Assembly (NCBI RefSeq): GCF_001968835.1
Contig: NZ_MRDE01000064.1
Location: 1-64,000 of the forward strand
Reading direction: 5' to 3'
Origin: Tersicoccus phoenicis
GTDB taxonomy: Bacteria > Actinomycetota > Actinomycetes > Actinomycetales > Micrococcaceae
Length of the DNA: 64,000 bases
Under the pieces are notes generated by a model. That model had not been told where the DNA came from. It ran no database searches and saw only the letters and a program-made list of their open reading frames with translations. Both the position numbers and the translations under genes were made by a program. Each line of letters begins with the position of its first letter. Position 1 is the stretch's first letter. Below are positions 8,493-43,891 of this stretch, piece by piece.

Positions 8493-9188
8493 GTGCGTCT
8501 GACCATCGCCCGCTGCTCCGTGGACTACATCGGCCGGCTCCGGGCCCACCTGCCGCTGGCCACCCGGCTGCTGGTGGTCAAGGCCGACGGGTCGGTGCTG
8601 GTGCACTCCGACGGCGGCTCCTACAAGCCGCTGAACTGGATGAGCCCGCCGGCCACGCTGCGGATCAGCGAGCCGGACGACGAGGCGGCGGCCGCGGGAG
8701 CGGTCAGCATCTGGACCGTGCAGCACGCCAAGAGCGACGACCGGCTGGTCATCACCGTCGAGGAGATCCTGCACGAGAGCACCCACGACCTCGGTGTCGA
8801 TCCGGGCCTGATCAAGGACGGCGTCGAGGCGGACCTGCAGCGCCTGCTCGCCGATCAGATCCACACCATCGGAACCGGCTGGTCGGTGGTCCGCCGGGAG
8901 TACCCGACCGCGATCGGACCGGTCGACATCCTCGTCCGCGACGCCGACGGCGGCACCGTGGCCATCGAGATCAAGCGACGCGGCGACATCGACGGCGTCG
9001 AACAGCTCACCCGGTACCTCGACCTGCTCAACCGCGACCCGCTGCTCGCCCCGGTCCGCGGCATCTTCGCCGCCCAGCAGATCAAGCCGCAGGCCCGGGT
9101 GCTCGCGACCGACCGCGGCATCGACTGCCTGACCCTGGACTACGACGCCCTTCGCGGTGTCGACGACGCGGACAGCCGCCTGTTCTGA
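8493..9188 (+). CDS. nucS: Mismatch-specific endonuclease NucS (EndoMS), 231 aa
   Basis: NucS cuts both strands at mismatches and replaces MutS/MutL repair in most actinobacteria. The N-terminal dimer and DNA-binding domain includes [18 protein letters not shown] and [10 protein letters not shown]. The C-terminal RecB-like nuclease has its metal site at D145, E159 and K161 (EIK). The final residues, ADSRLF, match the tail that binds the replication sliding clamp. Length is normal for the family. The GTG start is chosen from the promoter spacing. The small CPGCG-protein gene diverges from it. Confidence 0.93.
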
Positions 9189-9344
9189 CATCCGCGCTGG
9201 CGGCCCCCTCCCAAACCCGGTCCCGAGAAGCCCGTCGGCGCACGTCAATCCCACGTCGTACCGCGGATCCCGGAGCGCGTGCGGCCACGTTGACCGGGCA
9301 CCGGGCATGTGTTTTGCTTGGGGTGTCTTTGTGGTTGGATTTTC

Positions 9345-9367
9345 CGCTCGCAAGGCCGTTGCGAGCG
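9345..9367 (+). promoter_or_regulatory. Stem-loop 1 in the cold-shock gene leader
   Basis: CGCTCGCAA, loop GGCCG, TTGCGAGCG: a perfect 9-bp stem about 105 bases before the cold-shock start codon. There is no T-run after it, so it is not an intrinsic terminator. A weak promoter (TTGCTT 9314-9319, TTGGAT-like 9335-9340) lies just upstream and would place this hairpin at the 5' end of the mRNA. Confidence 0.6.
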
Positions 9368-9420
9368 ACGAAACGCAGCACGCCCCAGCGGCTCGTGTGC
9401 GTCTCCTCGTCAGTAACGAC

Positions 9421-9443
9421 GACCGGCACGAGGTGTGCCGGTC
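9421..9443 (+). promoter_or_regulatory. Stem-loop 2 in the cold-shock gene leader
   Basis: GACCGGCAC, loop GAGGT, GTGCCGGTC: a second perfect 9-bp stem, ending 15 bases before the AGGAG ribosome binding site (9459-9463). The loop exposes a GAGG sequence resembling an anti-16S motif. Two strong hairpins ahead of a cold-shock gene fit a structured, temperature-responsive leader; this role is inferred. Confidence 0.6.
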
Positions 9444-9471
9444 TTCACGCATCATCATGAGGAGAAATTCG

Positions 9472-9675
9472 ATGGCACAGGGAACCGTCAAGTGGTTCAA
9501 CGCTGAAAAGGGCTTCGGGTTCATCACCCCGGACGACTCCGACGGCGACGTGTTCGTCCACTACTCGGAGATCCAGACCAACGGATTCCGCACGCTGGAC
9601 GAGAACCAGCGGGTGTCCTTCGAGATCGGCCAGGGCCAGAAGGGCCCGCAGGCCACCGGCGTCACCGTCATCTGA
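9472..9675 (+). CDS. cspA: Cold-shock domain protein (CspA family), 67 aa
   Basis: This is a single-domain OB-fold RNA chaperone with RNP1 KGFGFI (residues 13-18) and RNP2 VFVHYS (27-32), starting with the classic [11 protein letters not shown]. It would melt mRNA secondary structure at low temperature or in stationary phase. The start at 9472 has AGGAG eight bases upstream; an in-frame ATG at 9457 overlaps that site and is unlikely. The leader carries two perfect stem-loops and the gene ends at a strong terminator, so it is a monocistronic unit. Confidence 0.97.
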
Positions 9676-9690
9676 TCTCGGCGTCAACGC

Positions 9691-9729
9691 AGAACGGCCC
9701 CCGGCAGCACCGCTGCCGGGGGCCGTTCT
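9691..9729. terminator. Strong hairpin between cspA and the lipid synthase gene
   Basis: AGAACGGCCCCCGGCAG, loop CACCG, then the exact complement: a 17-bp perfect stem. There is no T-run on either side, which is common for actinobacterial terminators. It sits between convergent genes and can serve both strands. Confidence 0.85.
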
Positions 9730-9748
9730 CCGTCTACCGGGTCCAGAC

Positions 9749-12295
9749 CTACCGGGTCGACGCCGGTTCCGGCGCACGCGCCGCCGTCGGCCCGAGTCCG
9801 CGCAGCAGCCGACCCGCCTGACGCAGCGTCAGGTCCGGCGCGTACGCCTCCGCCAGCGCACGGGCGATCCGCGGCAACTGCAACGGATCGGGATAGGCCA
9901 GATACCAGGTGCGGTGGGCGGGAGCGAACCGGCTCTTGAAGGCCGCCAGGGCCGCGAACCCGTACGCCGGTTCGAGCAGCCGACGCAGCGTCCCCTGCAG
10001 TCGTTCGACCGTCGTCGCCTCCGTGGGCCCGTCCCCGGAGCCGGCCGCCCGCTCGGGGTCGACGGCCAGCGGCGAACCGGAGAGGGAGAGCGCCTGCACC
10101 TCGTCGCGGAAGTGCAGCACCGCCGAGGCGATGAGGAACTCCATCACGCCGTTGAATCCCCCCGGATCCCGCCGCATGAAGTCCAGCGTCCAGCTGACCA
10201 CCTGCCCGTCCGCGTGGACGGGCAGCCAGGACACGACCCCGTGCACCCGGTCCTCGTCGTCGACGGCCAGACAGAGCGCCACGTCCGGATCGGCGAGCTC
10301 GGCCACCCCGCCGAGCGTGAAACCCAGTTCCGGCAGTGCCCGCTCGGCCACCCACGCCTCGGAGATCTCGCGCACCCGCGTGCGCGCGCCGTGCGGCAGG
10401 TCCGGCCATCGGTACCACCGCGCCCGCACCCCGATCCGCTCGGCCCGGTTCAGGGCGGTCCGCACGTTCTGCCATCGCTTGCCGGAGAAGGTCAGTCCCT
10501 CGATGGGCAGCACCGTCTCGTCGGCGACGCCGATCGCGCCGAACCCGAGCGGCCGGACCACCTCGACCAGGTCCCGCGGCACCGAGTAGAGGCAGGGCAC
10601 CAGCGCCTCGTCCGCGCACCACCGGATGAAGCCGAGGGCCGCGTCGGGCCACCGCTCCCTCGCGCCGATCGGTCCCCCGATGGTCAGGGCGACGCCGTGG
10701 TGGCGCTGGTAGGCGATCGCCGCGGTTCCGTCCGGGGTGAACCAGTAACTCGCGCCCGGCCACAGCGTCATCCGCGACAACGAATCCCCACCCACGCGCA
10801 CCAGCGCGGCCGCCCGGGCGACGACCGGCGCGGTGGCGCGCTCGGTCCGCCGGCCCCGGCGGATCAGGACGACCAGGCCGACCAGGGTGATCGCCCAGAA
10901 CACGGCGCCGCCGTAACCGAACACCAACCCACTGACCGGGCCGTCGGGCTCGACCGAGACCCCGAACCGGGCGGGGAACGGGTAGGGGACGAACATCCGG
11001 ACCAGGCTGGCCCAGAGGGCCCACCACGGGTGCGGGTGCAGGTCCGCGTTCCCCTCGGCGAACCACACCACCGCGTACAGACCGGCGACGGCGACCAGCC
11101 CGGAGACGACGACGGCGAAGGCCCGGCGGCCGGCGCGCGGCACCACGTCGCGGACGAAGAAGCGACGCTGACCGACCAGCACCAGGGCGAGCACCAGCGG
11201 TACCAGGACCCCGGGCAGCGTCGCCTCGAACACCCGCCAGGGCGGCAGCCGCCCGTTCGGGAACACGAACAGGGAGCGCAGGTTCAGGGCCGCCGCCGCG
11301 AACAGGCAGATCGCCGCCTGTGCCGCCACCGCCGCCCACAGGGCCGCCCGGCTGCCTTCGCGCATGCCCCAGGCGCACACCAGCAGCACCGCCAGCGGGG
11401 CCAGCGCCAGGGCGACGCTGCCCGGACCGGTCAGCGCCGCGCTGTGCGTGATCTCCGGGCAGGTCAGGTCCACCGCCGCCGAACAGCTGCGGCTCAGCTC
11501 CGCCGCCGTGGGCACCGGGTTGACGATGAGGACGCGCAGTTCCGCCAGGGGACCGGCCGGGGCGTGAGCCAGACCGGCCAGCAGCGGCCCGGTGGCGAAG
11601 ACCCCGACCACCAGCGCGAGCAGGGTCCGGCGCTCTCGCGCGGTCGCCAGGAACACGCCGCCCCGTTCGGCGGGTCCGCGGGCGGCTCTGCCCAACAGCA
11701 GGCCGAGCAGCAGGCCGAGCACACCGAGGACCGACTGGGGGGCGCCCACGTAGAGGACCAGGGTCACCGTCACGGTGGCGGAGACCAGCCGGATCCGGCG
11801 ACGCCAGAGTGCGGTCAGGCAGGCGCTCGCGGTCAGGAGCACCGTCATGGCGGCGACGTACGGACCGATCAGGGGTTGGTGGCGCAGGGAGCCCAGCCAC
11901 TGGACGCCCATCTGGTCGGCCGCGGCGGCCACCGCGAAGTAGGCGCTGACGCCGATCGCCTGCCCGATGCCCGCCACCACGACCGTGCGCAGGGTGCCCA
12001 TCGTGGCCTCCGCCAGTCCCACCAGCACCAGGATCAGCGCCGTGGCCGCGAGGTAGGACGCGAGATTGCCGGCGAACAGCGGTGCGGTGGCGACCGTCCA
12101 CCACCGACCGGCCGGCAGGTCCCCCACCGAGGCGGCCACGACGGTCTCGATGCGCGGCGGCGGTCCGCTCACCAACGACCCGGTGAGGGCCCCGAGGACC
12201 CACAGTGCCGCCGTCCAGCTCACCGCGAACGGGGTGCGGCGCACGTGCCGGGCCAGACGGCGCACCGCGCCCCGGAGGGGCGATCGTCCGCTCAC
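9749..12295 (-). CDS. Aminoacyl-phospholipid synthase (MprF-like, DUF2156), 848 aa
   Basis: The N-terminal half is a multi-pass membrane domain with a rhomboid-like character. The C-terminal half is a DUF2156 GNAT-like domain (GASYWFTPDGTAAIAYQRH, WQNVRTALNRAERIGV, WTLDFMRRDPGGFNGVMEFLI) that transfers an amino acid from aminoacyl-tRNA to a lipid. Such proteins make Lys- or Ala-phosphatidylglycerol or alanyl-diacylglycerol and lower sensitivity to cationic peptides. The amino acid used cannot be read here. The GTG start overlaps the esterase stop (GTGA), so the two are co-translated. The long open frame continuing upstream is antisense-like shadow inside the esterase. Confidence 0.82.
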   Translation of the reverse strand: MSGRSPLRGAVRRLARHVRRTPFAVSWTAALWVLGALTGSLVSGPPPRIETVVAASVGDLPAGRWWTVATAPLFAGNLASYLAATALILVLVGLAEATMGTLRTVVVAGIGQAIGVSAYFAVAAAADQMGVQWLGSLRHQPLIGPYVAAMTVLLTASACLTALWRRRIRLVSATVTVTLVLYVGAPQSVLGVLGLLLGLLLGRAARGPAERGGVFLATARERRTLLALVVGVFATGPLLAGLAHAPAGPLAELRVLIVNPVPTAAELSRSCSAAVDLTCPEITHSAALTGPGSVALALAPLAVLLVCAWGMREGSRAALWAAVAAQAAICLFAAAALNLRSLFVFPNGRLPPWRVFEATLPGVLVPLVLALVLVGQRRFFVRDVVPRAGRRAFAVVVSGLVAVAGLYAVVWFAEGNADLHPHPWWALWASLVRMFVPYPFPARFGVSVEPDGPVSGLVFGYGGAVFWAITLVGLVVLIRRGRRTERATAPVVARAAALVRVGGDSLSRMTLWPGASYWFTPDGTAAIAYQRHHGVALTIGGPIGARERWPDAALGFIRWCADEALVPCLYSVPRDLVEVVRPLGFGAIGVADETVLPIEGLTFSGKRWQNVRTALNRAERIGVRARWYRWPDLPHGARTRVREISEAWVAERALPELGFTLGGVAELADPDVALCLAVDDEDRVHGVVSWLPVHADGQVVSWTLDFMRRDPGGFNGVMEFLIASAVLHFRDEVQALSLSGSPLAVDPERAAGSGDGPTEATTVERLQGTLRRLLEPAYGFAALAAFKSRFAPAHRTWYLAYPDPLQLPRIARALAEAYAPDLTLRQAGRLLRGLGPTAARAPEPASTR

Positions 12296-43767: not shown

Positions 43768-43840
43768 GCCCGCGTAGCTCAGTGGATAGAGCGTCTGCCT
43801 CCGGAGCAGAAGGTCGTAGGTTCGAATCCTGTCGCGGGCA
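43768..43840 (+). tRNA. tRNA-Arg (anticodon CCG)
   Basis: This folds as a complete cloverleaf of 73 bases. The acceptor stem GCCCGCG pairs with CGCGGGC, the D-arm is GCTC/GAGC, the anticodon stem is TCTGC/GCAGA with loop CTCCGGA (anticodon CCG, reading CGG), and the T-loop is TTCGAAT. The discriminator base is A. CC follows but the terminal A of CCA is not encoded. A strong terminator follows after seven bases. Confidence 0.97.
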
Positions 43841-43847
43841 CCGTCGT

Positions 43848-43891
43848 GAGCGATGTCGTGGTCCGACCGAGGACCACGACATCGCTCTTTT
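43848..43891 (+). terminator. Intrinsic terminator of tRNA-Arg
   Basis: GAGCGATGTCGTGGTCC, loop GACCGA, then the exact 17-bp complement and TTTT. This is one of the few classical hairpin-plus-T-run terminators in the window. Confidence 0.95.

Follow-up and report, generated by a model that had tools for sequence, protein, structure and literature searches.

A conserved csp mRNA leader of the Micrococcaceae with a predicted anti-Shine-Dalgarno strand and a candidate Csp binding site

The 5' untranslated regions of csp genes in Staphylococcus aureus are known both for autoregulation by CspA and as thermoswitches, and Csp binds a U-rich site in its own leader there; these leaders come from a different phylum from Tersicoccus, the genus considered here. 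In Escherichia coli, the cspA mRNA is described as taking its active structure when it is transcribed at low temperature, and Csp as acting on its own mRNA (PMC9947658). The leader of E. coli cspA is represented in Rfam by RF01766, and the cspA gene of the actinobacterium Corynebacterium glutamicum (cg0215) has a 5' UTR, placed at 186,328-186,508 by RNAseq, that is called an RF01766 thermometer in PMC3890552. Closer to the present locus is CapA of Arthrobacter globiformis SI55, which is csp-like, is reported to stay high during growth in the cold (PMC4326396), and comes from the same family as our host; A. globiformis NBRC 12137 (L021) carries the leader and gene described below. Among the open-licence PMC papers searched we found no description of this csp leader and no mapped mechanism for csp control in the Micrococcaceae.

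The DNA analysed here, which we refer to as the window, is a 64,000-nucleotide stretch from a Tersicoccus genome (family Micrococcaceae). On its plus strand, at 9472..9675, lies a gene for a 67-amino-acid cold-shock protein (Pfam CSD, E 1.7e-32), whose product has the usual RNA-binding motifs, KGFGFI and VFVHY, matches solved CspB/CspA chains by sequence, and is identical across three Tersicoccus genomes, the host's own included. The gene sits downstream of nucS (Pfam NucS_C/NucS_N), whose closest named match is a Tersicoccus solisilvae contig at 95% identity, and csp also falls within the fetched stretch at 38 of 80 named nucS loci. An 18-bp perfect inverted repeat with a 3-nt loop (9691-9729) separates the csp stop codon from a convergent gene on the minus strand with an LPG_synthase_C domain, and is probably a bidirectional terminator. 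Elsewhere in the window, a 17-bp perfect inverted repeat at 43848-43887, immediately after a tRNA-Arg gene (43768-43842), is probably the terminator of that gene.

No Rfam family attains its gathering score at the locus. RF01766 reaches 54.2 bits, below its gathering score of 78, over 9402-9729 with the coding region included, and gives no match up to E 1 when the leader is scanned alone; we reject membership of the cspA thermoregulator family on these grounds. Since the leader alone gives no RF01766 match, we infer that the 54.2 bits stem from the coding part of that model. The earlier note on this DNA was right to call the leader different in sequence from those of enterobacterial cspA. Scanned alone, the leader returned one chance-level match in Rfam, to Hammerhead_II on the other strand (15.7 bits against a gathering score of 37). 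The C. glutamicum cg0215 leader is listed with an RF01766 score of 60.19 (PMC3890552), of the size found in the window, the two being likened by score alone. We note that other actinobacterial csp leaders annotated as cspA thermometers by RF01766 may likewise reflect the coding part. Like the E. coli cspA leader, the one described here is a long structured csp leader that would control access to the ribosome binding site; unlike it, it has a different 5' box. We class it as a variant of csp mRNA leader that is new and lineage-specific and would work in the manner of the cspA kind.

A folded leader RNA tied to one csp gene

The csp leader is about 147 nt long, with a start near 9325 predicted from sequence. 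Upstream is a predicted sigma-A-type promoter on the plus strand (9290..9318), with a -35 element TTGACC at 9290-9295, a 17-nt spacer, and an extended -10 element, TGt TTTGCT, at 9310-9318; a strict consensus promoter scan found no promoter. Among 109 leaders of relatives, a crude automatic score found the extended TG in 93, a TTG at a spacer of 16-18 nt in 74, and the best -10 at one same distance from a 5' sequence box in 68. Relatives share both the promoter and its spacing from this box, GUCUUUG (9325..9331, plus strand), which places the box at or just after the predicted +1. The predicted start lies upstream of both stems on which the earlier note was built, and not downstream of 9443. 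Control by transcription attenuation was rejected: the sole terminator-like site in a scan of 9100-9800 is at 9301-9321, upstream of the predicted start.

The two stems are exactly as they had been described, each a perfect 9-bp helix with a five-base loop: hairpin 1 (P1) is CGCTCGCAA-GGCCG-TTGCGAGCG at 9345..9367, and hairpin 2 (P4) is GACCGGCAC-GAGGT-GTGCCGGTC at 9421..9443 (loop GAGGU in the RNA), both on the plus strand. Taken alone, a single perfect 9-bp stem is close to chance expectation: in the window, which is GC-rich, we counted 12 perfect stems of 9 bp or more with loops of 3-8 nt, and 20 first-order Markov sequences hold a mean of 5.5. Stability beyond chance is instead a property of the whole leader, for none of 200 shuffles was as stable as the fold of 9325-9474 (z = -3.11).

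The hairpins do not make up the simple two-hairpin device envisaged in the earlier note; they are two parts of a larger element that also includes the 5' box and a predicted anti-Shine-Dalgarno (anti-SD) strand at 9402-9410. Reading along the plus strand, the box is followed by an outer helix, P0 (9330..9377), which encloses P1 and in which the 3' half of the box pairs with sequence after P1; its strands are UGUAGG/CCUGCA in Arthrobacter, and in the window it is weak (9330-9333 with 9374-9377) and absent from the window's own MFE structure. A variable stem region (P2, 9373..9401) does appear in the MFE structure and is poorly conserved in sequence, column conservation between 9377 and 9401 being mostly 0.3-0.6. 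Then come the anti-SD strand, UCUCCUCGU (9402..9410), an AGURAC box (9412..9417; column conservation 0.60-0.96), hairpin 2, a UCUUC (9442..9446) that is the alternative partner of the Shine-Dalgarno (SD) sequence in the window's 10 °C MFE structure, and the SD itself, GAGGAG (9459..9464), predicted to be buried. Most of the csp leaders collected from the family are laid out alike: the promoter is followed by the 5' box and hairpin 1, then by a variable stem and a CUUCUC-type box, and finally by hairpin 2 and the SD GAGGAG.

We collected 148 csp leaders (137 distinct) from contigs and genomes of Micrococcaceae; one further leader, L150, which has a GTG start, stands outside the 148. Leaving out 18 without the hairpin-1 pattern and merging duplicates gave 122, and removing 13 that keep hairpin 1 but lack the 5' box by the patterns used gave 109, rates on which are accordingly biased. 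Five of the 18 left out (L028, L092, L104, L148 and L174) carry the element and later matched R1, a covariance model built from 30 leaders. R1 has a single match in the host's own genome and 13 matches in 297 genomes of the order, all inside the family, with filters strict enough to miss weak matches. A second model, R2, built from 84 leaders, matches 102 of 240 family genomes with one copy per genome, and all 102 matches end within -3 to +4 nt of a csp start on the same strand; a set of 20 out-of-family csp leaders, drawn from the nearest ones, gave no R2 match better than E 0.1. Sequence comparison thereby shows that the leader is a conserved folded RNA and that it belongs to one csp gene in the Micrococcaceae.

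We also note, by eye, that several csp leaders from other families of the order (L206-L225) have recurring start sequences, CAGTTCCGTGTG, CAGTTCCCGTACGTTC and TCAGTTCGATGAGCACG, and that some have a hairpin directly before the SD; these features point to a class of csp leaders in actinobacteria that is wider and has diverged.

Covariation was assessed in a fitted alignment, A3, for which 98 loci were supplied, a few of them picked as likely negatives, and 84 matched at E 2e-5 (83 distinct); an alignment A2 was dropped because it contained reverse-strand partial matches. In A3, changes on both sides occur at 26 of the 40 pairs, and 231 cells are changed on both sides against 70.6 after shuffling and at most 70 in slid controls. 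Since A3 leans towards the model and the relatives are not independent, we used a tree-aware null in which the substitutions of each column were re-placed randomly on a tree, itself built from the same alignment columns, in 300 simulations; the null maximum for the whole structure was 138 cells, against the observed 231. Hairpin 1, with 13 pairs in the model, 93.0% of its cells paired and 5 pairs changed on both sides, had a score that none of the 300 simulations matched, and none reached that of hairpin 2 (7 modelled pairs, 93.7% of cells paired, 6 pairs changed on both sides, 28 compensatory branch events). The outer pairs of hairpin 2 were likewise never matched by the 300 simulations, the inner GGA/UCC pairs were equalled in 4 of 300, and P0, with 73.8% of cells paired, had its observed score attained in 6 of 300. 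The unfitted MAFFT alignment, A1, gave a smaller excess in the same direction (22 cells against 6.2), its 6 pairs with changes on both sides, against 4.0, being attained by 68 of 500 shuffles; an automatic consensus fold of the family MAFFT alignment had almost no structure. Because the null never matched them, hairpins 1 and 2 are helices well supported by covariation, and both stems are conserved by the covariation check in relatives that the earlier note had proposed.

We also considered a short upstream open reading frame within hairpin 1 (AUGCUCGCA...) acting as a leader peptide attenuator. An in-stem AUG is found in 86 of the 109 leaders, preceded in many, by eye, by an AGGUG-like sequence, but the reading lengths scatter from 6 to 47 codons, 20 have no stop within the leader, and hairpin 1 of the window itself has no AUG; we reject this reading and give it almost no credence. 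The GAGGT that the earlier note saw exposed in the loop of hairpin 2 is present in the window but is not a conserved trait: among the 83 distinct relatives the loop is GAGGT in 14, GAAGT in 14 and something else in 55, and a role as a conserved SD decoy was rejected for that reason.

Predicted masking of the Shine-Dalgarno sequence

The strand at 9402-9410 can pair with AUGAGGAGA at 9457-9465 through 8 Watson-Crick pairs and 1 G-U pair. In computed folds of the window at 37 °C, the probability that the SD is paired with this strand is 0.88-0.93, varying with the coding sequence included, and the SD (9459-9464) is unpaired with a probability of 0.02, rising to 0.06-0.15 at 10 °C. The SD is therefore predicted to be masked by the anti-SD strand and not by either hairpin. 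In relatives the SD is most often partnered by a CUUCUC-type box in the corresponding position, some 70 nt short of the leader's end; the partner is a GCUCCUC just after hairpin 1 in some genera, and the 5' box in several.

This burial was compared across 56 representatives drawn from the 109 leaders, under a uniform rule that takes an AGGAG core in the last 165 nt and makes 60 shuffles of the sequence upstream of the SD only. At 37 °C the element leaders had a mean SD unpaired probability of 0.16 against 0.39 when shuffled, and 35 of 56 fell at or below the 10th percentile of their own shuffles; 14 of 56 had a rank of 0.30 or more, and in these the SD is, by the folding model, not clearly more buried than in shuffles. 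Eleven family csp leaders that lack the element, ten from csp orthologues and one (L002) from a paralogue in the host's own genome, gave 0.40 against 0.43, with one of the 11 at or below the 10th percentile; for 20 leaders of csp genes from other families the values were 0.41 against 0.45 (3 of 20). Rank tests of element leaders against these controls gave p = 0.0006 and 0.00002, values that make the evidence look stronger than it is, since the leaders are related. In full predicted transcripts the SD was unpaired at 0.14 against 0.39, with 44 of 56 below 0.25. Defining the SD instead as the 6-nt stretch of the last 150 nt that best matches AGGAGG weakened the contrast: element leaders gave 0.28 against 0.43, with 16 of 56 no higher than the 10th percentile, and the controls gave 0.36 against 0.47 and 0.42 against 0.46. 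In computed folds, then, the SD appears paired with an upstream strand more than expected, and control csp leaders show no such average excess.

Covariation in the anti-SD:SD helix does not exceed that of the tree-aware null, in which 100 of the 300 simulations were as high by score and 7 of 300 by percent paired; the SD side of the helix barely varies, which leaves the test with low power. This helix is predicted on the basis of complementarity and folding rather than covariation. That hairpin 2 covaries strongly while the anti-SD helix does not, and that a stable conserved hairpin lies near the predicted 5' end, would fit a leader that governs mRNA stability, with hairpins that shield the transcript or make up a ribonuclease site and with merely incidental pairing of the SD. 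Such a leader would leave unexplained both the burial of the SD, which is lacking on average in control csp leaders, and the conserved CUUCUC-type box at a fixed place, and we regard it as quite improbable. A device that protects or times translation, as the earlier note put it, is probably right as to translation; it is the idea that the hairpins alone would do so that gives way to a third strand, 9402-9410, which would mask the SD.

We think it probable that the roughly 147-nt csp 5' untranslated region is a cis-acting translational gate, possibly with Csp autoregulation. The gate would be closed by default. Folding predicts, in most relatives, that the SD is captured by an anti-SD strand lying about 50 nt upstream of it and that hairpin 2, inside the closed domain, brings the anti-SD and SD strands together. 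The gate would be opened by something other than simple melting, and the candidates are folding during transcription in the cold, ribosomes as they initiate, and Csp itself. We infer, in this proposal, the transcript start, translational regulation, the opening factor, and autoregulation together with its sign.

Temperature, the 5' box and a possible role for Csp

As to temperature, the anti-SD:SD pairing computed for the window has a probability of 0.88-0.93 at 37 °C that is reduced to 0.16-0.22 by 10 °C, and the SD then re-pairs with UCUUC at 9442-9446 and stays closed, being unpaired at most 0.19 (at 4 °C). In most relatives the cold brings little or no computed opening: in many the SD is unpaired at 0.00-0.05 from 37 to 10 °C, and a few open partly at 10 °C (L029 from 0.14 to 0.47 and L091 from 0.01 to 0.30). 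A heat-melting RNA thermometer of the ROSE or fourU type was rejected, for the folds computed for the window keep the SD closed throughout the range from 4 to 45 °C. A pure RNA thermoswitch like that of E. coli cspA, in which the leader would refold alone in the cold and make the SD accessible, could draw on the loss of anti-SD pairing in the window and on the gain of SD accessibility in L029 and L091, but is opposed by the re-pairing of the window's SD with UCUUC and by the many relatives that stay closed; we consider it unlikely, while noting that cold folds computed from energy parameters extrapolated far from 37 °C, with kinetics ignored, are weak evidence either way. Equilibrium folding, at least, lends a self-acting cold switch no support; kinetic folding in the course of transcription may still play a part, as in the account of E. 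coli cspA mRNA (PMC9947658).

The GTCTTTG box is present in a single copy in the 64-kb window, with both strands searched. It lies within 220 nt upstream of csp in 95 of the 137 distinct leaders, is found in 69 of the 83 distinct aligned leaders, and stands in the first 20 nt of 91 of the 109 leaders, the last not an unbiased rate; one clade has GUCUUGA in the box position (8 of 109 trimmed leaders), and none of the 20 nearest csp leaders outside the family has a GUCUUUG box. The box equals the consensus heptamer of Bacillus subtilis CspB, given as d(GTCTTTG/C) in PMC7825780. For RNA, the CspB Kd values listed in PMC6467422 are 158 nM for GUCUUUG, 336 for U6, 485 for AUCUUUG and 822 for CUCUUUG, with GUCUUUU listed as tighter (88) and GUCUUGA at 307 nM. 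In the window the box is predicted to be partly paired once coding sequence is included (unpaired 0.23-0.54). Pairing of the box with the loop of hairpin 1 did not stand out from shuffles (a mean fraction of 0.33 of the shuffles did equally well, and 0 of 83 leaders were at or below 5%), and there is a weak sign of pairing with the loop of hairpin 2 (mean fraction 0.29; 17 of 83 leaders at or below 5%), which would be above chance if the leaders were independent.

The 13 leaders in which hairpin 1 is kept without the box, and the lack of the box in the 20 out-of-family leaders, speak against a role in Csp binding, and a box at +1 could instead serve initiation or RNA stability. That it is an initial-transcribed or promoter element unrelated to Csp binding is a reading we take seriously without favouring it: in 68 of 109 leaders it is spaced at one constant distance from the best-scoring -10, the match to the published CspB heptamer is one resemblance and no more, and CspA of E. 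coli is described as binding with low selectivity (PMC9947658). Against this reading, five family csp leaders that act as natural controls (L161, L164, L178, L186 and L190) have a GTTGAC -35-like sequence and a different leader, in which hairpin 1 is not recognisable, without the GTCTTTG box, and the GUCUUGA of the one variant clade is also among the heptamers bound by CspB (PMC6467422).

Within the gate that we favour, Csp at the 5' box is the most attractive candidate for opening; the 5'-terminal GUCUUUG would be a docking site at which the protein acts on its own message, either activating or repressing it. A more specific version, which we hold to be doubtful, is that the csp mRNA of Micrococcaceae begins with a high-affinity site for its own product and that the level of Csp sets the masking of the SD. 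Csp bound at the extreme 5' end would then compete with formation of P0; a number of relatives have a second anti-SD sequence (GCUCCUC) just after hairpin 1, and the 3' strand of P0 overlaps it. If this were true, the leader would be a protein-sensing one, with the preferred Csp heptamer at +1 as its sensor.

The enterobacterial Rfam model, we note, apparently scores the csp gene of the window through its coding part. Control by Csp of its own messages is an old question, and many of these soil bacteria are cold-living. With a named anti-SD strand and a candidate Csp site, self-control by Csp becomes testable in this family with a few point mutations.
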